Of a DNA stretch of 64,000 nucleotides, positions 1,350-49,600 are shown one piece after another. The DNA lies in assembly GCF_019443285.1 (NCBI RefSeq), contig NZ_CP080327.1, positions 1,178,001 to 1,242,000 on the forward strand, read 5' to 3'. Each line of letters begins with the position of its first letter. Position 1 is the stretch's first letter. The position numbers were made by a program, and so were the translations under genes. The notes under the pieces are model-generated. The model saw nothing but the letters and a program-made list of their open reading frames with translations, made no database searches and was not told the DNA's origin. This stretch comes from Aquisediminimonas profunda (GTDB lineage Bacteria > Pseudomonadota > Alphaproteobacteria > Sphingomonadales > Sphingomonadaceae).

Positions 1350-1357
1350 TGATGTCA
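1350..1357. promoter_or_regulatory. TGAYRTCA operator-like site (TGATGTCA)
   Basis: This is one of a family of TGAYRTCA palindromes placed upstream of transcription units in the first 48 kb. It lies 120 bp upstream of the TonB-dependent receptor start (1477) and 150 bp upstream of the divergent thiolase start. The equivalent site is retained at 4727 in front of the duplicated receptor. Confidence 0.6.
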
Positions 1358-1476
1358 AATTTGATTTGATTCTGCCGTAAGATTGGATTAGATGCAAAAC
1401 ACGAGGATAGTAGGTATTGTGAAGCAAAAAGGCACTAAGTTCGACCAAGAAAGTGCGCGCTGAAGAAGGGGTTGAA

Positions 1477-3972
1477 ATGAACATAAAACGTGATGTCGTT
1501 TTTGTTAAAGCGAGGGCGCGAAATGTGGCTACCGCAACAATTCTGGCGCTGTCGGTGTCGACATTGGCAACGACCGCTTATGCTCAATCTGCTGCTCCCC
1601 CCTATGACAGTAAAGTCTCCGCGACCCCCGCAGTCGACGGGGAAATTATCGTCACGGCCCGACGTCGCGGTGAAGACATTGCCAAGGTTCCTACTACTGT
1701 TACTGCAATCGGCGCGGATGCGCTGCGGGAGCGCAGCATTGCCACGCAAGCTGATCTTCAGGCAGCTGTCCCGGGTCTTACGATCCGAGAGACGCAGACG
1801 AACAACAGCCTGACCTTCGCTATTCGCGGCCAGACAGTAGACTCATTTTCGGGTTCAGCGACGGCGGTTGTGAATTACGTCAACGAAGTTCCATTTACTG
1901 CAGGCGGTGTCGCATCCTATTTCGATCTGGAATCGATTCAGGTGCTCAAAGGGCCGCAAGGCACGTTATTCGGTCGTAACGCTACGGGTGGTGCCATTCT
2001 CACAGCAACCTCTCGACCGGGGGGCGAGTTGGGCGGTTACGTCCGGCTGGGAATCGGCAATTACGATGCGAAGACAGCGGAGTTTGCATTTAACGCTCCT
2101 CTTGTCCGTGACGCGATCCTATTGCGTGTCGCTGGCAAGCTCTCCCGTCGGGATGGTTACATCAAAAATGTCTTCAGCGCTCCCGTATACGGGGGGAACG
2201 ACAACAGCCGGCTTGGCGCACTTTATAGCGACGCGTTTCGTGTGTCGCTGCTTACCAAGCCAAGCGAGACATTCGAGAGCCTGACAGTCTTCCAGTATGA
2301 GCGGACCAAAGGTAACAATTCGGGCACTCGCATATACTCGTTCAATCGATGTGGAGATCGCGCGCCCGGAGGGCAGCTCCTCAATTGCTCAGTCCATTTC
2401 CTCTATGGCCCACAGATGGATCAGGCCTTTGGATTCCAGGGCGCATGGGCGGGCTACCTAGCTGTTCACCCGGGTGCAAATCCCGGTGGCATCGAGGGCG
2501 CGTTAAGCAAGCAGAATAATCAGCTCGGGTTTTGGGATGTAGACGATGATTCCCCGTCCATCCACCGCGGCCGTGATTGGTTTGTCACCAACACGAGCAC
2601 ACTTGAACTTGGTGATGACACCAAACTCAAGAACATAATTGGCTACAGCGAATCTCGCGCTGTGGATTCGAGCGGCCAGACAGGCGAGCCATTCTTGATC
2701 ATCACGAATTACGACGCAGGTCGTCCGCTTACTGATCCTGTCAACTCGCTTGGAAATACTGTGATTGGCAAGTCTTTCACGGAAGAAATTCAACTCCAGG
2801 GTAAGGTCGCAAGCATAGAATATATCGTCGGCGGCTTCTTGCAGAAAATCAACGGCACGACGATTTATCCCCAAAGCTATTTTGGTCTTGAGCCTTATGC
2901 TGCCCCGGCAGCGTCGACAGCACATTGGAAGTCCACGGAGAGCTCCAAGGCGATCTTTGCTCACGTCACCGTTGATCTGGGTGAAGTGGCGGGGCTCAAG
3001 GGCCTGAAGCTTAGCGCCGGCGGACGATATGCCTGGACGAAAATTACTGCACTTCACCAGCCGGGCAGCAATTTTTACCCGCTGACTACACCGCCGTTCA
3101 AAGACGACCGTGCGAGCTGGAACGTTGGTCTTGAATATCAGGCTGCGCCGTCGGTCATGTTCTACGCGACCGCTCGCGAAAGCTGGCGCGCGGGCGGTAT
3201 TAACGCCACCACGCGCCCCAGCGTGTTGGACACTAGTACAGGCACGCTTTACGCTAACCTAGACAAGTTCAAGTCCGAGGTAGCGCAGGATTTTGAAGTC
3301 GGTGCCAAGTTCAACGACCGCTTGAGTGGCATTCCGGTGCATGCCTATCTTTCAGCATATACAATGCGTGTCTCGAACGTCCAACGTGTGCTGTTTGTTG
3401 ACAACCCCTTCACCGCTGCAGTCGATGCGATCGGTATTACGGTCGGCGTACCTCGCGCAAGGATAAAGGGTGTCGAGCTTGATGTGGGCTTGAAGCCGGC
3501 AGACTTTCTGGAAGTGGGATTCAATGGTGCTTACACAAAGGCAAGGTACTCCCGAAACAAGGTTTCGGTTTTCGCAGCGTCTCCGTTCCAGCAGGACTTC
3601 TTCTACGGACCATATGCAGATACGCCCAAGTGGACGGGTTCTGCATATGCTGTACTGAGTCTGCCTATCCCAGAACACGTCGGTGCCTTGAAGTTGCGCG
3701 CGGACACCTACAAGCAGTCGAGCTTCTTTTTTTCGAACCTCGACAACACAATCAATCCGGGAAGCAAACTGCCGGGCTATTCCCTGACAAACTTTCGTCT
3801 CGATTGGACAAATGTCTTGGGTACAGGGCTCGGTCTTGGTGCCTGGATTAAGAATGCGTTCAATGAGGAGTATTACGTTGGTGGCCTGCCGCTTGGAACG
3901 GCGCTGGGTGTTAACTCGGCAAATGTCGGTCGGCCGCAAATGTATGGTATGGACCTGAGTTTGAAATTCTAG
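1477..3972 (+). CDS. TonB-dependent outer-membrane receptor (copy 1)
   Basis: An 831-residue outer-membrane receptor that imports a ligand using TonB/ExbBD energy. The order is a signal peptide ending near AYAQS, a TonB box (EIIVTAR), a plug domain with the typical VLKGPQGTLFGRNATGGA stretch, and a beta-barrel ending in an aromatic residue (SLKF). I choose the ATG at 1477 because GAAGGGG sits just upstream; an in-frame GTG at 1453 is possible. The promoter, leader and TonB-box region are nearly the same as in the receptor at 4857, but plug and barrel differ strongly. It is a candidate importer for the substrate of the surrounding catabolic locus. Confidence 0.93.
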   Translation: MNIKRDVVFVKARARNVATATILALSVSTLATTAYAQSAAPPYDSKVSATPAVDGEIIVTARRRGEDIAKVPTTVTAIGADALRERSIATQADLQAAVPGLTIRETQTNNSLTFAIRGQTVDSFSGSATAVVNYVNEVPFTAGGVASYFDLESIQVLKGPQGTLFGRNATGGAILTATSRPGGELGGYVRLGIGNYDAKTAEFAFNAPLVRDAILLRVAGKLSRRDGYIKNVFSAPVYGGNDNSRLGALYSDAFRVSLLTKPSETFESLTVFQYERTKGNNSGTRIYSFNRCGDRAPGGQLLNCSVHFLYGPQMDQAFGFQGAWAGYLAVHPGANPGGIEGALSKQNNQLGFWDVDDDSPSIHRGRDWFVTNTSTLELGDDTKLKNIIGYSESRAVDSSGQTGEPFLIITNYDAGRPLTDPVNSLGNTVIGKSFTEEIQLQGKVASIEYIVGGFLQKINGTTIYPQSYFGLEPYAAPAASTAHWKSTESSKAIFAHVTVDLGEVAGLKGLKLSAGGRYAWTKITALHQPGSNFYPLTTPPFKDDRASWNVGLEYQAAPSVMFYATARESWRAGGINATTRPSVLDTSTGTLYANLDKFKSEVAQDFEVGAKFNDRLSGIPVHAYLSAYTMRVSNVQRVLFVDNPFTAAVDAIGITVGVPRARIKGVELDVGLKPADFLEVGFNGAYTKARYSRNKVSVFAASPFQQDFFYGPYADTPKWTGSAYAVLSLPIPEHVGALKLRADTYKQSSFFFSNLDNTINPGSKLPGYSLTNFRLDWTNVLGTGLGLGAWIKNAFNEEYYVGGLPLGTALGVNSANVGRPQMYGMDLSLKF

Positions 3973-4102
3973 GCACTACTTGAGCAAGAGCCTGATACAA
4001 CGACGCTTCCGCCCTCTGGCGGTGCGATCGGGAGCGATTGGCGTCGATGGTCGGTCGGGTAAGAGCAGGGCACCCGAGACGACTAGGCACCGCGACCACA
4101 CA

Positions 4103-4435
4103 GGTGCGCGGAATGTGCTCCGTGACTTATGCGGCCAACTTCTGTAGCGCCGAGAGCTGGCCTAGACACCCGCAGAATTCGGAAAACAACGTCAATGCCA
4201 TTCTCCTCATCGAGATAAGGAAGGGCGTTGAAAAAATTGATGGAATTGCTGCGATGGATGGCGTCGATTATCTCTTCTTTGGGCCTGGTGATCTTTCCAA
4301 CGACATGGGCATTGATCTGCGGTTGGAAACCGAGAGGTTGAAACATGCGTGGGACAAGGCAAGCCATGCGGCACATTCGCGCGGCAAGCGGGTGTTTGGC
4401 GTCGGGTTCCTGGGCTTCGATGCGAACGCCGATCT
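4103..4435 (+). pseudogene. HpcH/HpaI aldolase remnant (internal fragment)
   Basis: The reading frame here encodes VRGMC.VTYAANFCS through KRVFGVGFLGFDANADL, closely matching the middle and C-terminal part of the intact aldolase at 7472-8233. The N-terminal half is missing and the C-terminus is cut after DANADL. At 4432-4435 (ATCT) it joins a copy of the 5' end of the thiolase. The ATCT is shared by both parents (8154-8157 and 1055-1058), which suggests a microhomology deletion. An open frame runs through the fusion but has no natural start or matching product, so I treat it as debris of a tandem duplication. Confidence 0.8.
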
Positions 4436-4700
4436 CGGTCGGGTCTACCGCCGTCGCTCGACGGCTGCACGAATGGCCTGCGCTGCCAGTGTAGGCGTGG
4501 GGGTCGCATTAAGAGCTCCGCGGTGCGCGCGACATATGGGAGTCCTCGCGGTCGAAACGATAACTGCGTCGCGCATGTTCAGCTCCATAACAAAGGGCGC
4601 GCTGAAATCTGGCTCAGCCTGTGCGCAGTCTTTCTAGACCGAGCCGAATGCAAAGCGGCAGCTGGCGAAGCTTCTAGGCTGCGTGGCAGATAACGCGCTG
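4436..4700 (-). pseudogene. Thiolase 5'-end remnant
   Basis: This segment repeats 1059-1335, that is, the first ~50 codons of the thiolase and its upstream leader, in the same minus-strand orientation. It has many substitutions and one lost base near 4450 (CCGATCGC in the intact gene, CCGTCGC here), so the frame is broken. The start-codon region (CGCGCATGTT) is still recognisable near 4571-4580. With the adjoining aldolase fragment it marks where a second thiolase-receptor-aldolase unit was collapsed. Confidence 0.8.
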
Positions 4701-4726
4701 AAGGCGTCATTGAATTAAAGTGAAGC

Positions 4727-4734
4727 TGATGTCA
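4727..4734. promoter_or_regulatory. TGAYRTCA operator-like site (TGATGTCA)
   Basis: The site lies 123 bp upstream of the second TonB-dependent receptor (4857), in the same relative place as the site at 1350 in front of the first. The flanking promoter DNA is also homologous, so the regulatory region was part of the tandem duplication and has been kept. Confidence 0.6.
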
Positions 4735-4856
4735 ATTTAGGTTTGATTCGGCCGTGAATATGGTTTAGACGCGGAATACGAGTTTTACAGCGCACTAGTT
4801 TTACGGAGACTCGAAATCCGAGTTTATGAATGCGCACTTTGGAAGAGGGGATAGCA

Positions 4857-7277
4857 ATGCATATCAAAAATGATGTCGTTTTTCGCCAAGCGAAGGCTAG
4901 TGATTTTGCTGTAGCAACAATTCTGGCGTTGTCGGTCTCGACATTGGCCACGTCGACATATGCCCAATCTGCTCCTCCGGCCGATGGGGGGAAAGTTGCC
5001 GCCACTCCGGCAGCTGATGGGGAAATCATTGTTACCGCTCGCAAGCAGAGCGAACGAATCTCCGACGTTCCGATCGCGATCCAGGCATTCTCCTCTAAGC
5101 AGATCGAGCTTTACGCCACGCAATCATTTGCTGGCCTTTCCGCGCAAGTGCCCGGGCTTGATGTCGCCAATGGTACCACTGCAGGAAACGTTAACATCAC
5201 ACTTCGGGGGATCGGCTCAGCCGGCAATGGTGCTGCGACACTTGATCAAGCAGTGGCAGTCAATCTGGATGGTCTACAGGTGGGTAAGGGCAATCTCCTA
5301 AGACTGGGCTTTCACGATATGGAGCGTATCGAGGTGCTCAAGGGACCTCAGGCGCTATTCTTCGGCAAGAACAGCCCGGGTGGCGTTGTTTCCCTCGTTT
5401 CCAAGGATCCGGGGTCCGATTTCGAAGCCAGCGTCAAGGCGGGCTATGAATTCTACGCCAAGCAAAAGTTCATCGAAGGCGTTGTCTCCGCGCCCCTCGC
5501 CGAAGGACTCGGCTTGCGTGTCGTTGGCTATTTGTCAGGGCAGGACGGCTGGTTCCGTAACCTTGCGCGCACTGCCACGCGCAAGAGCTTGGGGGACCGG
5601 GACGAATATTTTGTTCGTGGTACACTGCGCTATGATTCGGGCGGTGGCTTCGACAATACTCTGAAGGTTTCCTATGGCGGGTTCACCACGCACAGCGGCC
5701 TCTCCGGCGCAGCGCAGCGGTTTGCATGTCCTTTTGGCAGCGCAGCTATCGAGCCTTCACCACCGGCCATCTCCAATTGCAAGATTGATCGCTACATTGT
5801 CATAGGATACCCCAGTCCGGCATTTCAGGCTGGGAACCCGCTGATCCGGGATGGGCTTTTCCACAAGCAGAACCAGCTTGCGATCGTCAACAGCGCCAAT
5901 CTTGAAGTGGCACCGGAACTGTCGATTGCGTCGGTGTCCACATACTTTAAGTCGCGGGAGCAAAGCACGGACAACTTCCTGTACAGCGAACAGTCGCTGC
6001 TGATTGGCGGCAACATTGCGCATGACAAACAATTTACTCAGGAAGTACGGGCGACCTCTCATTATGACGGCCCGGTCAATTTCATGGCTGGCGGCTTTTA
6101 TCAACATGAAGACTATGATTCGCGCTACCCGGCCCTAGTGGATGTTGGGCTCTTTTCAGGTCCTCCGATTGGCGTTCCAGTCACACTGGCGGACAACAGG
6201 TTCCGGCAAAAGACTGAAGCCTATTCAGTATTCGGCCAATTGACATTTGCACTCGCACAGCAGGTCGATTTCGAAATAGGCGGTCGATACTCGCACGAGA
6301 AGAAATCAGTGACTGGCGAGGCGGTTACAGCGTCTGTATTCAATCCCGTTGCGGGGCCACTGGTTTTTCCAGTGCCTTCAAAGAGCTTCGACGATTTCTC
6401 GCCGCAGGCGACCCTGAGATACAAACCGTCGGATAACCTGATGATCTATGCTACTTACCGCACCGGATTCATTTCCGGCGGCTACAATCTAGTCCTCTCT
6501 TCTAATGAAAAGCCATTCTCTCAGGAAAAAGCTAAGGGTGGCGAAGCCGGAATGAAAGCAGCGTTGTTCAACCGGCAGGTGAGGTTTGACCTTGCAGCAT
6601 ATCACTACAAGTACTCCGGCGTGCAACTTGGTCAGTTTGATCCGGCAACGGTGTCGAATATCGTCACAAATGCGACGTCTGCAAAAAGTTATGGCGTAGA
6701 TGCTTCCTTACAGTTCAGCCCCCGCGCTGTGCCCGGGCTTTCGCTACGCGGTGCATTGTCCTGGAACCATGCACGATATGGGACATGGCTCGATTCGGGC
6801 TGCTACGCGGGACAATCTATTGCTGCCGGGTGTAATCTGAATCTTTTTAACGGCGCGTTCCAAAGTCAGGATTTGACTGGTCACCGGCTATTGCGTGCAT
6901 TCGATTGGGCGGGCAATATTGGCGCGACTTATGAGCGGCCCGTTGCCGACGGCATAGTAATGGGCGTGTCTGCAGATGCGGCATACAAGGGCGCCTATAA
7001 CCCGAATCCGCAGGAAGATCCTCGCGCTCGCCAAGCTCCTTCCTGGCTGTTGAACGGCAACTTCACCGTGCGTGCAGAGGACAATAGTTGGGAGGCGGCT
7101 CTGATCGGCCGCAATCTAACCAACAAGCTTCGCTTGAGCGACGCCAACGCGGTTACCTTCTCGGGATTTGGGACCGGCACCGCCAATTCTGTCCCCTCCG
7201 ATCTCGAGGGTGTGGTCACTGAGCCTCGCTCGGTGATGTTCCAGATCACGCTTCGCAACAAGCTTTTTCAGAGGTGA
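4857..7277 (+). CDS. TonB-dependent outer-membrane receptor (copy 2)
   Basis: An 806-residue TonB-dependent receptor. The signal peptide ends near TYAQS, followed by the TonB box EIIVTARK, a plug domain with VLKGPQALFFGKNSPGG, and a barrel containing typical receptor stretches such as YRTGFISGGYN. The ATG at 4857 follows GAAGAGGGG, and its N-terminus aligns with copy 1. After the TonB box the two sequences diverge, so they probably bind different ligands or forms of one ligand. The C-terminus (RNKLFQR) lacks the usual final aromatic residue. A TGATGTCA site lies just past the stop, followed by the aldolase gene. Confidence 0.93.
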   Translation: MHIKNDVVFRQAKASDFAVATILALSVSTLATSTYAQSAPPADGGKVAATPAADGEIIVTARKQSERISDVPIAIQAFSSKQIELYATQSFAGLSAQVPGLDVANGTTAGNVNITLRGIGSAGNGAATLDQAVAVNLDGLQVGKGNLLRLGFHDMERIEVLKGPQALFFGKNSPGGVVSLVSKDPGSDFEASVKAGYEFYAKQKFIEGVVSAPLAEGLGLRVVGYLSGQDGWFRNLARTATRKSLGDRDEYFVRGTLRYDSGGGFDNTLKVSYGGFTTHSGLSGAAQRFACPFGSAAIEPSPPAISNCKIDRYIVIGYPSPAFQAGNPLIRDGLFHKQNQLAIVNSANLEVAPELSIASVSTYFKSREQSTDNFLYSEQSLLIGGNIAHDKQFTQEVRATSHYDGPVNFMAGGFYQHEDYDSRYPALVDVGLFSGPPIGVPVTLADNRFRQKTEAYSVFGQLTFALAQQVDFEIGGRYSHEKKSVTGEAVTASVFNPVAGPLVFPVPSKSFDDFSPQATLRYKPSDNLMIYATYRTGFISGGYNLVLSSNEKPFSQEKAKGGEAGMKAALFNRQVRFDLAAYHYKYSGVQLGQFDPATVSNIVTNATSAKSYGVDASLQFSPRAVPGLSLRGALSWNHARYGTWLDSGCYAGQSIAAGCNLNLFNGAFQSQDLTGHRLLRAFDWAGNIGATYERPVADGIVMGVSADAAYKGAYNPNPQEDPRARQAPSWLLNGNFTVRAEDNSWEAALIGRNLTNKLRLSDANAVTFSGFGTGTANSVPSDLEGVVTEPRSVMFQITLRNKLFQR

Positions 7278-7281
7278 TTTC

Positions 7282-7289
7282 TGATGTCA
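7282..7289. promoter_or_regulatory. TGAYRTCA operator-like site (TGATGTCA)
   Basis: The site lies 5 bp after the receptor stop codon and 183 bp upstream of the aldolase start (7472). It fits control of the aldolase as a separate unit, although chance occurrence cannot be excluded for a single 8-mer. Confidence 0.45.
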
Positions 7290-7471
7290 TGGCCGGCCGG
7301 TAAATGCTGGTCGGCTAAGGACTTCGCCAATGAACCTTAGCCAACCAAGTGCTCGCTTTGGGGATTGGGTGAAGCAATTGTAGAAGCCAATATACACAGG
7401 CGCTGGTGACTTCCCTAAGCAATGCTATGGGCGTCAGGTTGGTGTATCTTTTCATCGCAAGGAGAGCACAA

Positions 7472-8233
7472 ATGACTGTCGGCGCGCGAATGAGGCTGAA
7501 TGAACTCATTAGCTCTGGAATAAGACCAATAGGAAGCTTCGTCAGCAGCACCGACCCGCAAACAACCGATATCTTGGCTGCCTGCGGATTCGACTTTGTC
7601 ATTATCGACCGGGAGCACGGCCCTCACGACAACTCCTCAGCGCTCGGACATATTCGTGCTGCCGAACATCGGGGCATTATTCCGTTCATAAGGGTGCTTG
7701 AGAACTCTCAGACACTTATTCAGGCCGCGCTCGACCTGGGCGCTCATGGTGTGCTCATCCCGAAGATCGAAACCGCGGAACAGGCGCGTCGTGCAGTCGA
7801 AGCGAGCCTTTACGCGCCAAAAGGGGTGCGTGGTATGTGTTCTGCGACATATGCGGCCAACTTCTGTAGCCCTGAGAGTTGGCCTGAACACCAGCGGAAT
7901 TCGGACAGCAACGCCATTGCAATTCCCCTTATCGAGACAAGGAAGGGCGTTGAAAACATTAATGAAATTGCTGCGGTGGATGGCGTCGATTATCTCTTCT
8001 TTGGGCCCGGTGACCTTTCCAACGACATGGGCATAGATCTGCGGTCAGAACCCGAGAAGTTGAAGCCTGCCTGGGACAAGGTAAGCCATGCGGCACATTC
8101 ACGCGGCAAGCGGGTTTTTGGTGTGGGGTTCCTGGGTTTCGATGCGAACGCCGATCTGTTGGCAGGAACTGCCGATTTGCTTTTGCTCCAATCTTCAGCA
8201 GCGCAGCTAGTCAGGGAAGCCCGGGGCAAGTAA
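7472..8233 (+). CDS. HpcH/HpaI-type class II aldolase
   Basis: A 253-residue member of the HpcH/HpaI aldolase / citrate lyase beta family, enzymes that reversibly cleave 4-hydroxy-2-oxo acids to pyruvate (or a related keto acid) and an aldehyde using a divalent metal. Family motifs are IDREHGPHD, IPKIETAEQARRAV and YLFFGPGDLSNDMG. The start at 7472 is set by AAGGAG seven bases upstream; 22 further upstream codons in frame look unnatural. A damaged partial copy lies at 4103-4435. It probably acts late in the pathway, releasing a keto acid. The substrate is unknown. Confidence 0.88.
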   Translation: MTVGARMRLNELISSGIRPIGSFVSSTDPQTTDILAACGFDFVIIDREHGPHDNSSALGHIRAAEHRGIIPFIRVLENSQTLIQAALDLGAHGVLIPKIETAEQARRAVEASLYAPKGVRGMCSATYAANFCSPESWPEHQRNSDSNAIAIPLIETRKGVENINEIAAVDGVDYLFFGPGDLSNDMGIDLRSEPEKLKPAWDKVSHAAHSRGKRVFGVGFLGFDANADLLAGTADLLLLQSSAAQLVREARGK

Positions 8234-8274
8234 GAACTAGTGCCGGGAGCCGTTAGCATTTGGTGAGATTTCAT

Positions 8275-8354
8275 ATCCAGCATGCGGACGTCGTCGATAA
8301 CCCCTTTGCAAACTGCGCGAGACCCAGAAAAAGCGTCTACCGGTCATGCTGGAT
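8275..8354. repeat. Inverted repeat between convergent genes
   Basis: ATCCAGCATG at 8275-8284 is exactly inverted at 8345-8354. It sits between the convergent aldolase and cupin genes. The loop is about 60 bp and there is no T-tract, so a terminator role is only a guess. Confidence 0.3.
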
Positions 8355-8480
8355 CGGTACTCCCAGGACGGCTCATATCCAAGACCGACGGCTAATGTTA
8401 CCCTGAGCGCAAATTGGCAGTTGCCGCTTGGATAAAGTGGATTCAACCTGACTAACGAGGGTTTGCAGCTTTCCACCTTC

Positions 8481-9029
8481 TCAAACTGCCGGGAATCTTG
8501 AGACGTCCTGATTCACCCCGATGAATACAAGAAGCATTGTTGCCGGTTCGTCGCCTTCATTGAGCCAGGCATGTTGCGTGCCACATTGCACGAGGCAATC
8601 GCCGGCGCGGAGTACTTTGCGTTCCCCGCTGTCGAGAATTAGCGTCAGCTCTCCCGAAATGACGTATTCAAGATCGACGGTCGCGGTCGCATGCATTCCC
8701 CCAGAGCCGGACACGGCTTCCCCGATGCCCGGTGTCAATCTTTCTGTTTCTGCATGGGCTGCCGGGTCGTCGGTAAGCTGGTGTGGGCTGGCTTTTGCGG
8801 GATAAGTGAAAATGATAAAGCGAAAGCCTGACGCATCCTTGGGGAAGAAGCGCAATCCTTCTGCAGGCTTGCCATCATAAGGGACTGTCAGCTGCTGATC
8901 ACTGCCGAATATCTGGATGATGTCGGTTCCCAGTGTTGGAGGAGTAACCGCTTCAATTTCTTCGTCTGCCGTAAACCTCGACACGCCCTTTTCGTCGATC
9001 CCCGCAATCACTCGCCTAAGCTTTTTCAT
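8481..9029 (-). CDS. Cupin-domain protein
   Basis: A 182-residue protein with one C-terminal cupin barrel. The first motif region is HATATVDLEYVISGELTLIL and the second is GDCLVQCGTQHAWLN, with a metal-type His. The N-terminal ~90 residues carry no domain I recognise. Similar small cupins are found in aromatic and steroid-type catabolic clusters, where their reaction is often unknown. It is transcribed away from the tannase-like gene, and the shared 447-bp intergenic region contains a TGATGTCA site. Dioxygenase, isomerase and ligand-binding roles are all possible. Confidence 0.8.
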   Translation of the reverse strand: MKKLRRVIAGIDEKGVSRFTADEEIEAVTPPTLGTDIIQIFGSDQQLTVPYDGKPAEGLRFFPKDASGFRFIIFTYPAKASPHQLTDDPAAHAETERLTPGIGEAVSGSGGMHATATVDLEYVISGELTLILDSGERKVLRAGDCLVQCGTQHAWLNEGDEPATMLLVFIGVNQDVSRFPAV

Positions 9030-9223
9030 CTGATCTTACTCCAATTTGCCGGTGGATGCCAAGGCAAGCCTCAGCAAGGTTCCGGATACTCATTTTCATC
9101 AAGCAACAGAATTGCCATAGGCAAACCTTCGTTGACTTGAACGCCGTTCTTCTGCCTGAAATAGTTATCCGGAGCATTCTTTGCAGGCTAATCCATCCCT
9201 TCGGCCTTGCCAAGATTAAAAAA

Positions 9224-9231
9224 TGATGTCA
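9224..9231. promoter_or_regulatory. TGAYRTCA operator-like site (TGATGTCA)
   Basis: The site lies between the divergent cupin (start 9029) and tannase-like gene (start 9477), about 195 bp and 246 bp from their starts. Confidence 0.5.
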
Positions 9232-9410
9232 GATTCTCTTCATTTGATGCTTGTTGGGTTGGGTTTTCGAATCCGGGCCAGCGAGATTGACGGGGCAGGA
9301 GGGTAAGCACGCAACATCAGGACTTGGCGGTTCTGCTTCGGGGTTGCCGCCGGTAGTTCATCGGCGAGGCCATCGATGCGCTAAGGGCAGGTATGGTGTG
9401 TTTGAATTGT

Positions 9411-9440
9411 TTTGAATTCAAATGCTGCCGCAATTGCGGC
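9411..9440. promoter_or_regulatory. Two adjacent perfect palindromes upstream of tannase-like gene
   Basis: TTTGAATTCAAA (9411-9422) and GCCGCAATTGCGGC (9427-9440) are both perfect dyads, 4 bp apart, ending 36 bp before the start codon. They could be operators or a leader hairpin specific to this gene. Confidence 0.4.
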
Positions 9441-9476
9441 GAAGTTCCAACCGTTAGAGGAAGGCTCGTAATAAGT

Positions 9477-40339: not shown

Positions 40340-40375
40340 CATTCGCGTTAGTTCATGATTGAGTCTAACAATGGC

Positions 40376-41278: not shown

Positions 41279-41401
41279 ATGGCCAAGTTAATTGGTCGAA
41301 TTGGCTGGCAGATAGACGCTCCGGTGCGGGGGAAAAACGCGGGCCTTTTCTCGGCCTGTGAGCCCGCAACCAGTTAGGTGCCTTTGGAAGGAGTAATCGC
41401 G

Positions 41402-42787
41402 GTGTCGTCCCTGAAAAAAAGAATGCGCTTTTCGATGTTTTCCAGCTTCTGTCCGGCTGGAGGGCCGCCAAACCTTTGGTACCACGAAAAGGCTGTCAAC
41501 TTCGACTACCTGAATTTGGACCATTGGATCAAGCTGGCCCAAGACCTTGAGGAAGCAAAATTCGATTGCATCTTCTGGGCCGATCACAGCGGACTGCATG
41601 ACACCTTTAAAGACTCTTACGCGCCAGCAGTGGAACTCGCATTGCAGTTTCCTATCGCGGATCCCATGTTCCTCGCGGCTGCTCTCGCGTCCTCGACTAC
41701 TAACCTTGGTCTTACTGTCAGTGCGAACGTCATTCAGCACCATCCATACGTCTTTGCACGCAAAATCGCGACTCTGGATCATCTGCTCCGAGGTCGGCTT
41801 TCTTGGAATGTCGTGACGTCTTTTCAGAGAACCGCATGGCAGAATCAGGGCTACGACGCCGTCGAACCGCATGCTGTGCGCTACGCACGGGGCGAAGAAT
41901 ATCTGGAGGTGATTTACAAGCTCCTTGAGGGCTCATGGGAAGATGATGCGGTCGTGCGAGACATTAAGGCGCGACTTTACGCAGACGCGTCCAAAGTTCA
42001 CGAAATTCATCATGAGGGGCGCTTGTACAGGGTGCCAGGGATAAATACGGTCGAGCCGTCTCCGCAAAGAACGCCATTCTTGTTCCAGGCTGGCGCATCC
42101 AAAGAAGGGCGCGATTTTTCTGCGGCCAATGCAGAGGCGATTTTCATTTTTGGGAGTGCCGAGAACACTCTGGCTTCAATGAAACCAACCATCGCGGACA
42201 TGGCGCAAAGGCTTGTCAGCATGGGACGCAGGCCGAGCGATCTGCTCATATTTGCCGGGCGCAATTACGTAGTCGGCTCCACGGAAGAGGAAGCCCGCCG
42301 ACTTGATCGCGAGATTCAGCAGATGCATCGCGAATCGGACTTTTGTCCGGCCTATATGAGTTCAATGATGGGGCTCGATCTGAGCAAGATCGATCTCGAT
42401 GTTCCGATCGGCGACTTTGAGACTGATGCTGTTCAAGGCAACTTCCGCATGTTGGCGGATTCGGCTCCGGACAAGCGCTCGACGTTCAGGGACGTTGCAA
42501 TAGCGCTTTCCGGGAACAGGTTCGTTGGAACGCCTGAGCAGGCGGCGGATGAAATAGAGGAATGGTACGATGCTGGCATAAGAGGCATAAACTACCAGCA
42601 ATTGACCGGCATGGGCGAAGTCTACACTTTCATCGAACAGGTTTGTCCTGTGCTCAAGGCACGCGGACTCATGCAGGAGGAATACGCGCCCGGCACGGTA
42701 CGCGAAAAGATGTTTGCCGGAACTGACAGTCCGAGTGGCCCACATTTGAACGACCGACACAAGGCCGCAAGGTTCCGGCATATTTAG
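41402..42787 (+). CDS. Luciferase-like (LLM class) monooxygenase 2, NtaA/DszA type
   Basis: A 461-residue FMNH2-dependent monooxygenase of the long NtaA/SnaA/DszA group. Motifs include WYHEKAVNFDYLNLDHWIKLAQ, FADHSGLHD-like residues and LDHLLRGRLSWNVVTS. The start is a GTG at 41402, eight bases after GGAAGGAG; an ATG at 41423 is the alternative. It needs reduced FMN, which the flavin reductase at 44021 could provide. The preceding lactonase supports ring oxygenation followed by lactone hydrolysis, though N- or S-substrates are also known for this group. Confidence 0.88.
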   Translation: MSSLKKRMRFSMFSSFCPAGGPPNLWYHEKAVNFDYLNLDHWIKLAQDLEEAKFDCIFWADHSGLHDTFKDSYAPAVELALQFPIADPMFLAAALASSTTNLGLTVSANVIQHHPYVFARKIATLDHLLRGRLSWNVVTSFQRTAWQNQGYDAVEPHAVRYARGEEYLEVIYKLLEGSWEDDAVVRDIKARLYADASKVHEIHHEGRLYRVPGINTVEPSPQRTPFLFQAGASKEGRDFSAANAEAIFIFGSAENTLASMKPTIADMAQRLVSMGRRPSDLLIFAGRNYVVGSTEEEARRLDREIQQMHRESDFCPAYMSSMMGLDLSKIDLDVPIGDFETDAVQGNFRMLADSAPDKRSTFRDVAIALSGNRFVGTPEQAADEIEEWYDAGIRGINYQQLTGMGEVYTFIEQVCPVLKARGLMQEEYAPGTVREKMFAGTDSPSGPHLNDRHKAARFRHI

Positions 42788-42910
42788 ACCGCTTGTGTCG
42801 AAGTTGCCAGGTGGCAACCGAAAAGCGCATTCGGCTTAGTCGACCAACGCCCGCAGTTTTGCGACGAAACATCCTTGCAAAATTGCCGATTTACTGTAAA
42901 CTAACAAAAG

Positions 42911-42918
42911 TGACGTCA
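42911..42918. promoter_or_regulatory. TGACGTCA operator-like site with promoter
   Basis: A perfect palindrome overlapping GTGACG (42910-42915), a 17-bp spacer, and TATGTG (42933-42938). The gene start follows closely, implying a short leader. Confidence 0.6.
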
Positions 42919-42951
42919 GTATCACGCTGCGATATGTGAAGGATGAGTGAA

Positions 42952-43872
42952 ATGGCTGCGAAAATTCTCTGGCTTTCGGATTCCACTGCGACTCAGCACG
43001 GAACGTCTGATCCTGTCGAGCAGGACATCATCTTTTCGAATATGCTCGGGTTTGCAAAGAAGCTCGCTCGGCCAGACACTGAAATCGACATTGCCTTTCT
43101 CGAGCACAACATTGGCAGTGACTATGTTCCCACCATGCGATATCCGCGCACTTTCATGGCGGTCGAGATGGTTGAGCGCATCATGCAGGCCGAAGCAGAC
43201 GGTTATGACGCCGCATTCGCGGGCATGTGTTATGGCGAGTTCTTCCTGCAGGATGCTAGGCAGGCGGTCCGGATGCCGGTAGTCGGTCCGGCGGAATCGG
43301 CAATGATTGTTGCCCAGTCGCTTGGAAAGAAATTTGCTGTCCTGACCACTGCCGTGAGTTTCGAGCATGTTATGGAGGAGAATATTCGTTTCCATCGCTG
43401 GGAAGGCGCGGCTATCAGCCATCGCCCGGTCCGGTCTCTGGAGTTTTCGTCTGATGGACCCGAAGGGGTCGGACGCGTTTTGGTCCAGATGATGCTGGAC
43501 GCCTATGCAGGGCGTCCAGAGAGAATGATCGAGCAATTTGACCAAGCCGCTCAGGAGCTTGTTCGCGATGGCGCAGATGTTGTGATATGCGGCTGCAACC
43601 CGCTCGGTGCAGCATTGTCTCAGGTAGGTTATAACGAAGTATCGGGAACCGGAGTTCCAGTCGTGACTGCGCTGCCGGCACAGATCAAGATGGCTGAGAT
43701 GTTGATTGATCTGAAGCGCGGTGTCGGCTGGAGCAAGACAGAGGCTGTTGTTGGACCTTATCTCAGCACGCCGCCTGAGATTTTGGACGATCTCGCTGCA
43801 CGCGGAATTGGGATGCCGCAAGTTCGTAAGAATGCGAGCAAGTCCGCAAAGGTCAGACTTCACGCAGCCTGA
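42952..43872 (+). CDS. Asp/Glu/hydantoin racemase family protein
   Basis: A 306-residue member of the Asp/Glu/hydantoin racemase superfamily, which also includes arylmalonate decarboxylases and maleate isomerases. The two candidate catalytic cysteines are Cys93 in GMCYGEF and Cys213 or Cys215 in VICGCNPLG. The ATG at 42952 follows AAGGATGAG; an ATG three codons upstream is also in frame. It has its own operator-like site immediately upstream. Isomerisation, racemisation or decarboxylation of an intermediate with an acidic alpha-carbon is expected. Confidence 0.82.
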   Translation: MAAKILWLSDSTATQHGTSDPVEQDIIFSNMLGFAKKLARPDTEIDIAFLEHNIGSDYVPTMRYPRTFMAVEMVERIMQAEADGYDAAFAGMCYGEFFLQDARQAVRMPVVGPAESAMIVAQSLGKKFAVLTTAVSFEHVMEENIRFHRWEGAAISHRPVRSLEFSSDGPEGVGRVLVQMMLDAYAGRPERMIEQFDQAAQELVRDGADVVICGCNPLGAALSQVGYNEVSGTGVPVVTALPAQIKMAEMLIDLKRGVGWSKTEAVVGPYLSTPPEILDDLAARGIGMPQVRKNASKSAKVRLHAA

Positions 43873-44020
43873 CCCTGGTCAGGCGCATGTAATTGTCCTC
43901 GACGGGTTCGAGGCGAAATGGCCACCACGCCAAGTGGTTTTTGACTGCATGGCCATCCAAGGCGAAGCACGCGATTGAGAATTGGTCAGGCCTAATGAGG
44001 CGTGCCGATCTTCTGGAGGC

Positions 44021-44530
44021 ATGAAAGTGATTCTTGCTGAAAATTTGCCGTCGATTGATGGCACTTTGTATCGATCTATTTCTGGCCAATGGCTTACAGG
44101 GGTCACGGTTGTCACCACACGGGATGAACATGATCGCGCCGTTGGGTTGACGATGAGTGCGGTTTCTCCGCTCTCACTTAACCCTCCCCAATTTCTCGTC
44201 AATCTGGATTTGGGTTCAGAAACCCTGACGGCCATTTTGGTGCGCAAGGCCTTTTGCATCAATTTTCTCGGATCGAACCAGCGCGAAGTGTGCTCGCAAT
44301 TCGCAAAGAAGGGGAGTGACAAGTTTGCGGGCATGGCACATCGATCCGGTGAACTGGGAATGCCGGTGATCGAGGGCGCAATTGCCTATGTTGAATGCAC
44401 TGTTGCTGACGTCTTCAATAGCGGCGATCACTCGATCATTGTGGGCGACGCGCGTTATGGAAAAGTGTCTGGCGGATCGCCGCTGGCGTATTTTCGGAGT
44501 GCTTTTCGTGAGCTCGCACATTGCGAATGA
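44021..44530 (+). CDS. Flavin reductase (HpaC-like)
   Basis: A 169-residue flavin:NAD(P)H reductase domain protein, with SGQWLTGVTVVTTRDEHDRA, GLTMSAVSPLSLNPPQFLV and a conserved FCINFLG stretch. It provides FMNH2/FADH2 to two-component monooxygenases; the LLM proteins at 14528 and 41402 are the obvious clients. The ATG at 44021 follows CTGGAGG. Confidence 0.88.
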   Translation: MKVILAENLPSIDGTLYRSISGQWLTGVTVVTTRDEHDRAVGLTMSAVSPLSLNPPQFLVNLDLGSETLTAILVRKAFCINFLGSNQREVCSQFAKKGSDKFAGMAHRSGELGMPVIEGAIAYVECTVADVFNSGDHSIIVGDARYGKVSGGSPLAYFRSAFRELAHCE

Positions 44531-44796
44531 GGCGCAGGGGATAGCAAATTTGAACACGAAATTGGCTTGCAATAGCGATCTAGGCTTTGAGCATGCCCCG
44601 TAGATACGCCACTTACGAAGGCTCCTTTTGTGCGGCTGGCTGGCGATGATCGGATTGCATAGCCACAACTCGCATCGTACTGAAAGCACTTGACGATTTG
44701 CTCAAATCAGAGCTTGGTGCCAGAAACCTGTTGATCAATTTTTTGGGACCTGTATTTCGACCCTTGTTATTACGCATTAGGAAGGTGCCGCTTCGC

Positions 44797-45594
44797 ATGC
44801 GCGATAGAAGCATTAGAAGGACCGCTCGAAAGCCTGCCTCCAATGCGAGGCGCCTTCGCGCAACAAAAGTCCCGGTGAGCGAGACAGGCGCAAAGGGGTT
44901 GAGGGCGAAGGCTGCGTTAATGGATGCAGCTTGCTCGGTTTTCAGTGACATGGGATTTACTCATGCCCGTGTTCAGGACATTACCTATCACGCGGGTTTC
45001 TCGCTCGGCGCTTTTTATCGCTACTTCACCGACAAGGACGATATACTCTCAGCCATCGCCTCGGAGTATTTTGAACAGGCCTACGCCACAACATTCCTTG
45101 GGGCGCATTATGACCCCTCCAATCCAATGGAGTCCCTTCAAAGGTCGACGGCGCAAACTGTCAATTTCGCATATGAAAACAGGGATCTAGAAAAGATCCT
45201 GTGGGAGACGTCCCAGTTCAACAGCCGTATTGAAGATCAGTGGAGTGAGCTTCGCGGGCGAATTTACAAGAAGATCGCCCGTTTGATAGCTCGTGCCCAG
45301 GAAGACAAAATCGGATATCCCAGCATCGATCCGGTCTATACTGCGGAGTTGCTCACAGGGATGACTGAACTTGCCGTATATAGAAAGCTTGTGCGGCCGG
45401 ATCGGATTTCCGCGGACGTACCGAGGATTCTGACCGAGCAGTTGACGGACCTTTGGGCTAGAGTTCTGTTTTTACCAGAGGTCAGGCTCGCGGCGGCTAA
45501 GAAAACTGAGGAGTCGAGTCAACTGAGTGCCAAACAGATGGGGTCTCTTAGCACTAATTTGGCGGATGTTGTCGGTTCAAATGCAATTGATTGA
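44797..45594 (+). CDS. TetR family transcriptional regulator (paralogue 2)
   Basis: A 265-residue TetR-type regulator closely related to the one at 11532. The start at 44797 (MRDRSIRRTARKPAS) makes the two proteins align residue by residue up to SETGAKGLRAKAALMDAA. The HTH is VQDITYHAGFSLGAFYRYFTDKDDIL. The C-terminus is about 30 residues longer than in paralogue 1. The open frame runs 33 codons further upstream without homology. With its paralogue it brackets most of the TGAYRTCA-bearing region and is a strong candidate for its regulator. Confidence 0.9.
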   Translation: MRDRSIRRTARKPASNARRLRATKVPVSETGAKGLRAKAALMDAACSVFSDMGFTHARVQDITYHAGFSLGAFYRYFTDKDDILSAIASEYFEQAYATTFLGAHYDPSNPMESLQRSTAQTVNFAYENRDLEKILWETSQFNSRIEDQWSELRGRIYKKIARLIARAQEDKIGYPSIDPVYTAELLTGMTELAVYRKLVRPDRISADVPRILTEQLTDLWARVLFLPEVRLAAAKKTEESSQLSAKQMGSLSTNLADVVGSNAID

Positions 45595-45727
45595 GACCTG
45601 CTAGAGCGGGGTAGCCCAATGTCTCGGCGGCATTCCAGTCGTTTTTAGTCAGTCCACTTTTCACCGAAATGGAGCCGGTCGCGCGCAATGTACGTGCGTC
45701 AGATTATCTCCCCCCACCTCTGCTTTC

Positions 45728-46489
45728 CTATTGAGCAGTGAAGCCGCCATCTACGACCATGGAATGGCCTGTGACGAAGCTTGCCTTGTCCGAACACAGC
45801 CAGATCGCCGCTTCGGCGACCTCCTCAGGTTCTGCGATGCGTCCCATTGGCGCATGGTTCATTAGCCTGGCGCGCATGTCCTCACTAATAGCCATGACTT
45901 GTTCGGACATGGCACTGCGAACAACGCCAGGGCAGAGGACATTCACCCTGATGTTTTGCTTGGCGTAAGCCAAGGCCGCTGCCTTGGTCAAACCAATCAC
46001 AGCATGCTTGCTGGACGTATAGGCGGGAGTCGCGGGCTCTCCCGCGCTTACCAGGCCCATGATAGACGCAGTGTTCACAATGGCCCCGCGACCACGCTTG
46101 AGCATTTCGGGAATTTGATACTTCAGGCAAAGAAACTGGCTGAGCAGATTGATTTCGAATGTGCGGCGGAACACATCCTCATTCCAAGTATGGTCGTCCG
46201 CCGGCGTGATACCAGCGTTATTGAACGCACAGTCAAGGCTGCCGAACGTTTCAACAGCACTCGACACGAGTCGCTGGACCTCCGCGTCTATCGAAATATC
46301 CCCGCAAACCGCGATCGATTGTCCGCCCGCCTGCTTCACCAACTCCGTCGTTTCATGTGCCGTGTCAGGCTTCAAGTCCGAGACGATTACGCTTGCCCCT
46401 TCCTTTGCAAAGCCAATGGCGGCAGCGCGACCAATCGCACCGCCAGCGCCGGTGACAATGACCACCCTGTTTTCAAATAGTCTGCCCAT
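45728..46489 (-). CDS. Short-chain dehydrogenase/reductase (SDR)
   Basis: A 253-residue SDR with GAGGAIG, NNAG, catalytic Ser in NTASIMG and YTSSK (Tyr-Lys), and CPGVVRSAM near the C-terminus. It is the last of three consecutive minus-strand SDR genes (47352, 46570, 45728). An operator-like site stands before the first of them. Likely oxidises a hydroxy intermediate; substrate unknown. Confidence 0.88.
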   Translation of the reverse strand: MGRLFENRVVIVTGAGGAIGRAAAIGFAKEGASVIVSDLKPDTAHETTELVKQAGGQSIAVCGDISIDAEVQRLVSSAVETFGSLDCAFNNAGITPADDHTWNEDVFRRTFEINLLSQFLCLKYQIPEMLKRGRGAIVNTASIMGLVSAGEPATPAYTSSKHAVIGLTKAAALAYAKQNIRVNVLCPGVVRSAMSEQVMAISEDMRARLMNHAPMGRIAEPEEVAEAAIWLCSDKASFVTGHSMVVDGGFTAQ

Positions 46490-46569
46490 ATCAATCTTCC
46501 TTGGTCACCATCTGGCAAATGAGTCATACGATAAAGCAGCCTCGGCGCAGCGCGGATGAAGCGCCAAAC

Positions 46570-47325
46570 TTATTGGGCTGTGAACCCGCCATCCACGATG
46601 ATCTCGGTCCCGGTGATATATGAGCTCTCATCACAGGCGAGAAACAATACCGCGTTGGCGATGTCTTTTGGCTCTCCCATTCTCTTCATGGGAACTGACG
46701 CGGCGGAAGCCTCAACGATCTCGCGCGGCGCATTATGCTGCATCTCGGTGACGATGATCCCCGGATGGACGATATTGCATCTAATACCCTCGACTGCCCC
46801 TTCCAACGCGATCGTCCTGCTCAGTGCGCGAACGCCGCCCTTGCTTGCTGTGTAGGCCGGCAGGTTTGGATATGCTGCGACACCACCATAAATTGACGAA
46901 AGATTGATTATAGAACCGCCGGACCTTTGGGCGCGCATCTGGCGCATGGCGGCCCTGGAACCGAGAAACGTCCCCGTCAGGTTGATGCTAATTACCTTTT
47001 CCCAATCGGCGAGCGTTATGACATCCATGCCGCCCGCAGCGCCCATTGCGGCATTATTGACCATGATGTCTAGTCGCCCGAACTGACGAACAGTCTCGGC
47101 GATAACGCGATCCCATCCATCTTCATCGGCAATGTCCTGCGTCAGGCACGCCACATGGCCCTCTTCACCCAGTGCCTTGGAGGCAGCGCGAATGCGAACT
47201 TCATCAATGTCGGTGATCATGACATGAGCGCCTTCGCGCAAGAGCGCGGCAGCCGAAGCGTAACCAAGCCCGATGGGCGATGCTGCGCCTGTTATGATGG
47301 CGACTTTGCCCTTTACTCTATTCAT
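46570..47325 (-). CDS. Short-chain dehydrogenase/reductase (SDR)
   Basis: A 251-residue SDR. The cofactor region is GAASPIGLG, an unusual form of the TGxxxGxG motif; then NNAA, catalytic Ser in NLSSIYGG and YTASK. It is the middle gene of a three-SDR group, with 26 bp to the SDR upstream and 80 bp to the one downstream. Confidence 0.87.
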   Translation of the reverse strand: MNRVKGKVAIITGAASPIGLGYASAAALLREGAHVMITDIDEVRIRAASKALGEEGHVACLTQDIADEDGWDRVIAETVRQFGRLDIMVNNAAMGAAGGMDVITLADWEKVISINLTGTFLGSRAAMRQMRAQRSGGSIINLSSIYGGVAAYPNLPAYTASKGGVRALSRTIALEGAVEGIRCNIVHPGIIVTEMQHNAPREIVEASAASVPMKRMGEPKDIANAVLFLACDESSYITGTEIIVDGGFTAQ

Positions 47326-47351
47326 TTTCGAGCTCTTTCAGTTGCGTCAGG

Positions 47352-48164
47352 TCACCCTTGGGACATCGCCGCGGCGAGTAGCGGGGTCTCGGCGAGGAAG
47401 GGATGGCGGTGCAGCCCGATGCCGCCATCGACCGCAAAGCTTTGGCCTGTCACCCAGGAGGCCTCTGGTCCAGCAAGATAGCGCACCGCGTTCGCGATAT
47501 CGACCGGCTCGCCGAAACGAGGCAAAACGACTTCACGTTGGTATATCTCGATTACCTCGGGGATCAACATCGCATCTTCGGTCGCTCCCGATCGGGTCAG
47601 TCCAGGCCGAACTGCATTGACGCGGATACTCTTCGCGCCCAGTTCCTCGGCGGCTGCTCGCACCAATGCTTCGAGGGCTGACTTCGAGACATGATAACTG
47701 GCAAAAGGGAAGGTAGGTCTTGCCGCCTCAGTCGAGGAAATGCACACAATCGATCCGCCGTCCTTCATCAGTGGCACGGCGTGATGCATGGCGTGGAAAG
47801 CACTTGTGACGTTATAGTCGAAATTGTCGCGAAGGTGCTGCGCTTCCATCGCTTCGAATGGCCTGAAGTCGACACCGCCGACTGTAGCTACAACGATATC
47901 GAGGCGATCGGCAATTGCATAAGCGGCCTTGATTGCCGCTCCAACGTCGCTGTCTTGAACAGCATCGCCCACAAATAGTTCCACGCGAGCGTCTGACACT
48001 TCTGCCAGAATCGCTGCCCGGGCCCGTTCCAAGGCATCCTTTCGGCGACCCATAAGCAGCACAGCTGCGCCATCTCGGGCGAGAAGCGTGGCTGATGCAC
48101 TAGCGATAGCCCCATAGCCGCCCGTTACGAACGCGGTCTGACCCGCAAGCACCTCGGTACTCAT
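47352..48164 (-). CDS. Short-chain dehydrogenase/reductase (SDR)
   Basis: A 270-residue SDR. The glycine motif is GGYGAIA, with the last Gly replaced by Ala; VATVGG takes the NNAG place; catalytic Ser is in CISSTEAA and the Tyr-Lys pair is in YHVSK. Altered motifs suggest a divergent substrate or cofactor preference. It is first in the three-SDR group. A TGACATCA site lies 133 bp upstream. Confidence 0.84.
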   Translation of the reverse strand: MSTEVLAGQTAFVTGGYGAIASASATLLARDGAAVLLMGRRKDALERARAAILAEVSDARVELFVGDAVQDSDVGAAIKAAYAIADRLDIVVATVGGVDFRPFEAMEAQHLRDNFDYNVTSAFHAMHHAVPLMKDGGSIVCISSTEAARPTFPFASYHVSKSALEALVRAAAEELGAKSIRVNAVRPGLTRSGATEDAMLIPEVIEIYQREVVLPRFGEPVDIANAVRYLAGPEASWVTGQSFAVDGGIGLHRHPFLAETPLLAAAMSQG

Positions 48165-49600
48165 ACCTTTTCTCCCATCAATTGTCCGCGCTGTCCTTCC
48201 CGGTCAACAACGCCACGTGGTCGTTCGCACCCATGACAGCCGCTGCACATAGATGATGGCGGTCCGTGCCTAGCGCAGCTTACGTTAAAAAAACACTGAC
48301 ATCATATTCAATATCTACGTCGTGGAGTTGTTTTCGTCAAGTAAACTAAAGCCAATACTCGGGCGAAAATCTGCGCTGAAAAGGTCGGCTCCACTCCGCA
48401 GTTTGTTTTCTGCGGGCGTATTAGGATTGTCGGACATTTCTTGATCGTCGAATTGCGACGGGTAGCTGACGGCAGGCTAATGGGTGCAGCTGGGGCGTAA
48501 GTTGCCATTTGAGCACACTGATATCTATATGAAAGCTGACATCGCAGGCACGTCAATTAAAAAGTAATTTTTCCCTCTCGTTCGCTAAACGCTGACTGTC
48601 GAGACTGGCCGACGCAGTGAGAGCCGCATAGTCTTGGCTGAGATTGGGACTTGTCAAAATCCCGAATTTCCCCGGAAGAAAAATGAAGTACCGTCCCCCT
48701 CACCACCCGAAGCTTCGTTTGAAAAGTGCGTGGTACCCTTCCGGGCCGCGGTTCTGATCTCGACCCTATGCCGCGATGCCCGCAAATCCCCGGGCGTTCA
48801 AACCGACTCTAAATGCAACAGTTGCCTTGCACGGCTTAGCAATCTGCTGGTCGCCAGCCAGCGAGCCCGACTGGTCGAGGTCTAGATCAGCGGCATGGCT
48901 GAGGGCTTCGGCCGACAGCTGAGCCGTCACTGGATTGATCATCATGGGCGAACTAGGCTTTTTTTGCCGCGATCAGTTTGCATGAATCGCTGTACCCGGC
49001 GCAACTGACGCAAGCCGAATGATCGGGCTCGACTATGTCAGGTGCTAATCCTTGGCTTTGATTTGAGAAACCGTTCATTTGACCTCCGATGGTCCATTGC
49101 CCGGCGGCTCGGGTACGAGATCTGTCCCTGGAGCCGCCTCCGCTTATCGGCCGCCGTTCATGTTCATTTGCCGGCAATTATCATTGTTTCGCGCGACCGT
49201 GTGAATCAGAGGGTGCCTGCTCGGCAGGGAGCGAAACCAGGCCCGACAACAGGTCCGGATTCAGCATCGGGCATCGATGGTGCTGCTGGCTCTGGTGCGT
49301 GAATGAACCTTAAGCCGCTTTTGGGGCCATTTTGGTGGCAGACAATTTGGGCTGGTGAGCTTCGCATAGCCATGCTGGCTACAATATCGGACCAGGTCTT
49401 GCCTCGGTGCTTTGTTCAGGGTCGGATGCGGTCGCTCGGTTGATGCAACAGCTGTGGCGGCCTTTGGCTAGCGGTAGGCATATCCGGCTAAAGACTGGAC
49501 TATGCCTGGGGCCGCCCAAGCCGATTTGTCCTCAAGCGATTTTGGGAAGCGGCGCGCTTATTTTCGCCCGAGCCTTTTTGCCGGCCCACGCAAAACCGTC
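48165..49600. other. Long stretch without a convincing gene (part 1)
   Basis: About 1.4 kb. It contains the TGACATCA site at 48297. Short open frames (such as 48634-48885 and 49042-49302 plus, 48953-49177 minus) show no family features. It may be decayed sequence at the edge of an inserted element. Confidence 0.5.
48297..48304. promoter_or_regulatory. TGAYRTCA operator-like site (TGACATCA)
   Basis: It lies 133 bp upstream of the first gene of the three-SDR group. A weaker match (TGACATCG) lies at 48537. Confidence 0.5.

Follow-up and report, generated by a model that had tools for sequence, protein, structure and literature searches.

Gene content of the locus

The 64-kb window analysed here, which spans positions 1,178,001–1,242,000 of the 3,406,525-bp, single-contig chromosome of Aquisediminimonas profunda, carries genes for TonB-dependent receptors, a thiolase, a tannase-like esterase and acyl-CoA dehydrogenases. 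Alongside these lie flavin-related genes (luciferase-type and NtaA-type flavin monooxygenases, a ribBA-like gene, an old-yellow-enzyme gene and a flavin reductase), a CoA-transferase-like pair, an AtuA/carboxylase/hydratase set, a lactonase, an Asp/Glu-racemase-like protein and many SDRs. All of them adjoin copies of the short palindrome described below. Gene calls were ORF-based, 44 by codon score and five added by hand. Upstream of the window, the locus continues to a third TonB receptor gene (L018 9204–11621) and includes an SDR, a luciferase-like oxygenase 75% identical to the one encoded at 14528, an alcohol dehydrogenase and an acyl-CoA ligase; beyond this extension lie housekeeping genes (release factor, HisRS). 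The G+C content is 54.9% in the locus versus 58.5% in control stretches, which here and below are 17 pieces of this chromosome, each 20 kb long (340 kb in all).

A duplicated segment occurs at 1151–1550, 4528–4926, 4038–4637 and 7406–8233. It includes two receptor promoter regions that are 75% identical, and a partial second HpaI-type aldolase ORF lies between both TonB receptor genes of the window. On the downstream side, about 2.2 kb (48300–50550) hold no ORF of at least 100 aa, and an integrase gene follows at 51764–53023. Inverted GAGTCTCCTATGGA-like repeats were found by eye in the ORF-poor stretch at about 49,615 and 49,690, together with an A/T-rich stretch, and the region as a whole looks like an island edge. 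Past the integrase gene (51764–64000) are genes for a FAH-type hydrolase, a GST, an IclR regulator, two Rieske oxygenases, a cupin protein and an aldehyde dehydrogenase; further downstream, into L019, are methylamine-dehydrogenase heavy-chain-like and thioredoxin-like genes, with no operator score of at least 16.

Relatives of the locus proteins were sought in other genomes and in plasmids. The best 10 of 713 plasmid matches to TonB receptor 2 come from Sphingopyxis, Sphingomonas, Sphingobium, Novosphingobium and Rhizorhabdus. At E ≤ 1e-60, no further relative of the CoA-transferase-like subunit was found in 298 family genomes, and neither the context of its two plasmid relatives nor plasmid matches of two other locus proteins gave the pathway a name.

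A palindromic element concentrated before genes of the locus

The core TGAYRTCA occurs 18 times in the window, against a mean of 3.74 in dinucleotide shuffles, of which 0 of 100 reached 18. A sequence-only reading of this DNA had listed 13 exact sites; all 13 lie where it placed them and outside called genes. The five copies absent from its list are at 16238, 22523 and 24200, within ORFs, and at 52419 and 63882, outside the locus. Letter counts over the 13 sites favour A at positions −4 and −3 from the core and T at the mirror positions, so that the fuller element is a 16-bp palindrome, AAnnTGAYRTCAnnTT. This refines what had been said of the flanks, namely that AAAG or AAAT often precedes the core and TT follows it: the former is true of 4 of 13 sites, and TT follows immediately at 0 of 13 and two bases further on at 10 of 13.

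Placement near gene starts, also part of the sequence-only reading, is borne out. Between positions 1 and 48,400, 13 of the 16 cores are non-coding, although non-coding DNA makes up 16.3% of that sequence (binomial P = 1.9e-8), and these sites stand 16–219 bp from the nearest start. The roughly 7.6 kb of non-coding DNA in this interval holds 13 copies where a first-order Markov model expects 0.42, and among 384 palindromic 8-mer shapes tested the runner-up has 4 non-coding copies. In the control DNA, by contrast, 5 of 21 cores are non-coding against a non-coding fraction of 15.9% (P = 0.23), about as expected.

Enrichment of this kind might be a by-product of AT-rich intergenic DNA, of duplicated segments or of promoter composition, and two features lean that way: A/T-rich letters flank the palindrome, and the sites at 1350 and 4727 share a duplicated 405-bp segment (75% identical) and so are not independent. 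Yet dropping one of this pair leaves 12 of 15 cores non-coding (P = 1e-7), and the Markov expectation, the shape comparison and the same-chromosome controls all speak against the idea. When 18 site regions of about 400 bp were compared with one another, long similarity was confined to the 1350/4727 pair; beyond that, 1350 and L018:16890 shared one 26-bp match. We consider such a by-product highly improbable; chance or AT-rich background was rejected on the Markov expectation, the shape comparison and the matrix scores given below.

In the chromosome as a whole the core occurs 287 times, yet flanked cores concentrate in the locus, and a genome-wide motif was rejected: at least three of the four flank letters are kept by 13 of 20 cores in the locus (1,166,001–1,226,400), one of them within a gene at 1,166,887, versus 5 of 267 elsewhere, all five of which sit in frames of at least 236 codons. 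The exact 16-bp element has five copies in the chromosome, all inside the window, and its reversed control has none. With one mismatch allowed there are 37 matches, 19 of them within 71 kb (1,155,451–1,226,308). By the gene calls, 16 of these 19 are non-coding; 15 of the 18 matches elsewhere lie inside stop-free frames of at least 200 codons, a criterion that differs from the gene calls. Intergenic regions in the rest of the genome were examined for an equally high density of the 16-bp element, and none was seen. Among 397 family genomes, the exact element is present in 115, that is, at least once in 114 genomes besides this one, whose five copies are the most of any, the next having four. AAnnTGAYRTCAnnTT is thus a real, locus-concentrated, palindromic operator-like element.

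Quality and extent of the sites

Site quality was measured with a weight matrix under leave-one-out scoring. Twelve of the 13 exact-core sites score 16.2–23.2 and keep at least three of four flank letters; the exception on both counts is 7282 (score 4.2). Across the 340 kb of control DNA, one match reaches a score of at least 16 (L034:7059), and 52 reach at least 9.

Along the locus, AAATTGATGTCAAATT (1346–1361; exact, score 23.2) lies between the thiolase gene (−) and the gene for TonB-dependent receptor 1 (+), and its counterpart in the duplicate of that region, AAGCTGATGTCAATTT (4723–4738; exact, 21.2), precedes the gene for receptor 2. Between a cupin gene (−) and the tannase-like esterase and TetR1 genes (+) is AAAATGATGTCAGATT (9220–9235; exact, 22.1). 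The variant AAACCGACGTCAGATT (13856–13871), which has one mismatch, lies before an acyl-CoA dehydrogenase gene (−) and scores 16.7 without having been in the training set. ATGTTGACGTCATATT (18252–18267; one flank mismatch, 18.4) precedes the CoA-transferase-like pair, which we take to be IpdAB-like, and an acyl-CoA dehydrogenase gene. A further exact copy, AAAGTGACGTCAACTT (22232–22247; 20.8), stands before the ribBA-like gene, assigned to flavin supply by gene family, and GAAGTGATATCAAGTT (23639–23654; one flank mismatch, 16.8) before epimerase, MmlI-like and old-yellow-enzyme genes.

In the second half of the locus, GATGTGATATCAATTT (32952–32967; one flank mismatch, 18.8) separates an AtuC/E/F/A-like carboxylase operon (−) from a nitroreductase gene (+); ATTCTGACATCATGTT (36779–36794; one flank mismatch, 17.3) precedes two SDR genes (−); and AAGTTGACATCAGTCT (38721–38736; one flank mismatch, 16.2) lies between SnoaL/quinone-reductase-like genes (−) and epimerase/EthD genes (+). 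The exact copy AAATTGACGTCACATT (40328–40343; 22.3) is found before the genes for an SMP-30-type lactonase and the NtaA-type flavin monooxygenase, and AAAGTGACGTCAGTAT (42907–42922; one flank mismatch, 19.4) before the Asp/Glu-racemase-like, flavin reductase and TetR2 genes. The last, ACACTGACATCATATT (48293–48308; one flank mismatch, 18.2), precedes three SDR genes (−) and marks the right-hand limit of the regulon: strong sites stop on the downstream side at core position 48297, and from 48.4 to 64 kb no matrix score reaches 16.

Two of the 15 sites listed in the sequence-only reading look like chance matches. The core match at 7282–7289, before an HpaI-type aldolase gene, lacks the flanks and is probably fortuitous. 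Of the two one-mismatch forms proposed there, 13860 is supported by its score of 16.7, whereas 14357 (14357–14364, before a luciferase-like monooxygenase gene) scores 9.6 and is not separable from background. By gene order and spacing, on which we based the unit boundaries, the part of the locus in the window comprises 19 putative transcription units, and 17 are preceded by a good intergenic site; the two that are not are the HpaI-type aldolase unit (7282) and the 14528–18192 run that includes an acyl-CoA ligase (14357).

The regulon reaches upstream of the window. Matrix scores there are 19.6 at L018:11744, 16.2 at L018:7459 and 19.2 at L017:17455, and the third TonB receptor gene is preceded by a site that was outside the training set. 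L017:17455 is inside an M61 peptidase gene and is probably a chance match.

Within the window, TGATGTCG with full AA/TT flanks also occurs at 1487–1502 and 4867–4882, some 10 bases past the starts of both TonB receptor genes (1477 and 4857 by our reading of the sequence). The copy at 4871, which falls within the opening codons of receptor 2, was likewise outside the training set and has a score of 17.2. These internal copies may represent a second operator, or no more than codon conservation. An inverted 26-bp stretch of similar sequence lies upstream of the window at L018:16873–16898.

Promoter geometry and direction of control

A promoter scan covered positions 1–19,500 and 29,500–48,900, and a separate script covered every listed site. 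The sites had been said to overlap a −35 element at 18255, 40331 and 42910, in a manner suited to repression. The scan found such an overlap at 40331 (TTGACG-17-CATGAT) and not at 18255 or 42910, and neither the script nor the scan revealed a promoter geometry common to all listed sites. Promoter-like matches were about as frequent as in shuffled sequence (13 versus 11.8 in 1–19.5 kb; 8 versus 10.4 in 29.5–48.9 kb), and since the core itself contains TGAC, some resemblance to a −35 element is built in. Repression through −35 overlap, with 40331 as its single scan-supported site, is therefore not upheld as it was put, and we take the direction of control from the protein family of the candidate regulators.

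The sites might instead mark binding of an activator, with the locus off by default. The variable spacing (16–219 bp from starts, with no fixed −35/−10 overlap) would suit this, and some TetR proteins do activate, AtrA being an example (PMC3511530). Most of the TetR proteins studied to date are repressors (PMC3511530). The sites at 22236, 23643, 38725, 40332 and 42911 are moreover only 16–42 bp from the called start, which, if the starts are right, is close for a classical upstream activator. Activation thus appears rather unlikely. It can coincide with control by a regulator encoded elsewhere, considered below, and the odds we attach to the readings need not sum to one.

Two TetR-type proteins as candidate regulators

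TetR1 (11532–12242, +) and TetR2 (44698–45594, +; start probably at 44797, as we read the sequence) both contain the PF00440 TetR_N domain (37.3 and 40.4 bits, cut-off 24), and they are the only regulators recognised among 40 scanned proteins of the 1–48.4 kb region. They are 71% identical to each other and have the same recognition segment, AGFSLGAFYRYF; the next match in the genome after the pair has E = 3e-5 and 31% identity. With regard to the all-helical ligand-binding C-terminal domain of this family, an AlphaFold model of TetR2 shows helices at a mean pLDDT of 43, too poor to use. The matrix scan found no good site directly before either gene. In each case the TetR gene may close a gene run headed by a site (9224 for TetR1, 42911 for TetR2), but across gaps of about 243 and 167–266 bp, so that its membership is tentative.

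These features also bear on a rival reading, in which the palindrome serves as operator for a regulator whose gene lies elsewhere (TetR, GntR, IclR or another type) and the TetR pair controls something else. The TetR genes have no site directly upstream, an IclR gene lies nearby at 55120–56031, and the best match of the pair to solved structures is distant (E = 2e-7), so that its operator is not predictable. Against this, the element is concentrated in a locus where only the two TetR genes were recognised as regulators, and regulators that serve a single locus are as a rule encoded within it; a motif limited to one locus points to a regulator with the same limits. The IclR gene, for its part, is beyond the integrase gene in the 48.4–64 kb region that has no score of at least 16. 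Control from elsewhere is, on balance, unlikely. Reading of the palindrome by the TetR pair is the most economical interpretation, suggested by the location of their genes, their status as sole recognised regulators and their identical recognition segments.

Searches for relatives returned for TetR2 only its own pair at E ≤ 1e-30 in 249 family genomes, and for TetR1 only its own pair in 398 phylum genomes (cut-off 1e-18); with the cut-off at 1e-15, three further matches with 27–30% identity came from 385 class genomes. No close orthologue was found in the genomes sampled, so they offer no phylogenetic footprint. More distant relatives came from 11 reference-genome loci (local matches of 28–48%) and 12 plasmid records (25–31%). 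Of 22 relatives, 1 has an exact core in the 600 bp preceding the TetR match; two of the 22 are identical in that upstream DNA, and 11 are similar over part of the protein only. Some relatives carry other palindromes upstream. Those on Dietzia and Rhodococcus plasmids adjoin AtuA/carboxylase genes and have no exact core there.

A plasmid of Martelella (NZ_CP054860.1) resembles the locus in having the core TGATGTCA in a divergent intergenic region beside a TetR gene. It differs in that its TetR protein is 25% identical, with the recognition segment AGVSRGAFYLYF, and in its divergently oriented neighbours, which form an ABC transporter/AMP-binding/aldehyde dehydrogenase set; the operator there is putative. 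The intergenic region between this TetR gene and the divergent ABC-transporter operon contains TGACACTGATGTCAGTGTCA, a near-perfect 20-bp palindrome (L037:11752–11771). For the assignment to the TetR pair, these relatives count as weak support at most.

Comparison with known catabolic operators

KstR and KstR2 are TetR-type repressors of steroid catabolism in mycobacteria and rhodococci (PMC3068626). Their 14-bp palindromic operators are intergenic, near starts and found only near the locus; five KstR2 sites stand 22–82 bp from starts, and a sixth, at 285 bp, is unregulated. The two repressors act independently, and kstR and kstR2 are autoregulated (PMC3068626). The present locus is like that system in its two TetR-type proteins, large catabolic region, CoA-linked ring degradation and palindromes near starts, and unlike it in that the paralogues share a recognition segment and have no sites directly before their own genes. 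The TetR pair is weakly similar to KstR2 (E = 7e-4). The KstR2-type operator AnCAAGnnCTTGnT (PMC3068626) was rejected as an explanation of the sites: the window has four copies of CAAGNNCTTG, none of them at the sites.

AtuR and RdmA repress the atu/dmg clusters of Pseudomonas through the operator AGCAAGCGCTTGG (PMC9973270). Their target, an AtuA/C/E/F-type carboxylase cluster, is also present in this locus. The AtuR-type operator was likewise rejected; the window lacks an exact copy of its 10-base core, and the seven one-mismatch matches (14 of 100 shuffles reach seven) include none at a TGAYRTCA site. The published AtuR operator AGCAAGCGCTTGG of Pseudomonas and the KstR2 motif AnCAAGnnCTTGnT of mycobacteria have a common core (PMC9973270, PMC3068626).

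In Sphingobium, the local repressor PheR couples uptake and catabolism of phenanthrene (PMC13273656); it differs from the candidates here in belonging to the IclR family, not TetR, and in its essential core, GCAACG. The palindromes given in PMC12882949 and PMC9736018 also differ from this element. A search of the open-access literature for the cores TGACGTCA, TGACATCA and TGATGTCA together with TetR gave nothing relevant among the matches listed; the search covered these three, with TGATATCA outside its scope.

Discussion

The sequence-only reading proposed one regulator for uptake, activation, ring-opening and accessory genes. A signal shared across the locus by genes for uptake, activation, ring-opening and cofactor supply is well supported, and the identity of its reader is the part we put forward as a proposal. 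Because the signal stands before most gene groups and is rare elsewhere in the chromosome, the degradation locus of about 60 kb probably turns on and off as one unit. We put the probability at roughly 70% that the element is a pathway-specific operator read by TetR1, TetR2 or both, which would repress the genes until an inducer binds. As for KstR2 (PMC3068626) and AtuR/RdmA (PMC9973270), repression is most likely released by a compound of the pathway.

We picture such a switch as follows. TetR1 and/or TetR2 would bind AAnnTGAYRTCAnnTT as a dimer, and while the substrate or an early, probably CoA-linked, intermediate is absent, the protein would occupy about 13–14 operators near gene starts. 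Bound there, it would hold down TonB uptake, oxygenation by the luciferase-type and NtaA-type enzymes, the CoA-transferase-like step, the Atu-like carboxylase branch and the dedicated flavin-supply gene. Binding of the ligand would free the protein from its operators, and the whole locus would be induced together, with possible feedback by way of the two gene runs that would each have a TetR gene as their last member. The exact operator at the ribBA-like gene agrees with the flavin demand of the flavin-dependent oxygenases.

The presence of twins also allows a more tentative thought. The two proteins could share one operator at some 13–14 places and yet each answer to its own ligand (say, the substrate for one and a late intermediate for the other), or they could act as a heterodimer, making a two-input switch of the 60-kb pathway. 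This is possible, with the odds against it.

The system is best described as a TetR-type catabolic regulon with a presumptive binding protein, and the result as a candidate operator/regulator pair; existing views of catabolic regulation are not overturned by it. On the evidence of the DNA alone, the element marks out the gene set of an uncharacterised degradation pathway, and the membership so defined takes in the third TonB receptor beyond the window and the flavin-supply gene. If confirmed, the pair would add a class of TetR operator with a core for which no TetR link was found in the open-access literature among the matches listed, and a screen for compounds that release the regulator could reveal the substrate of the pathway.
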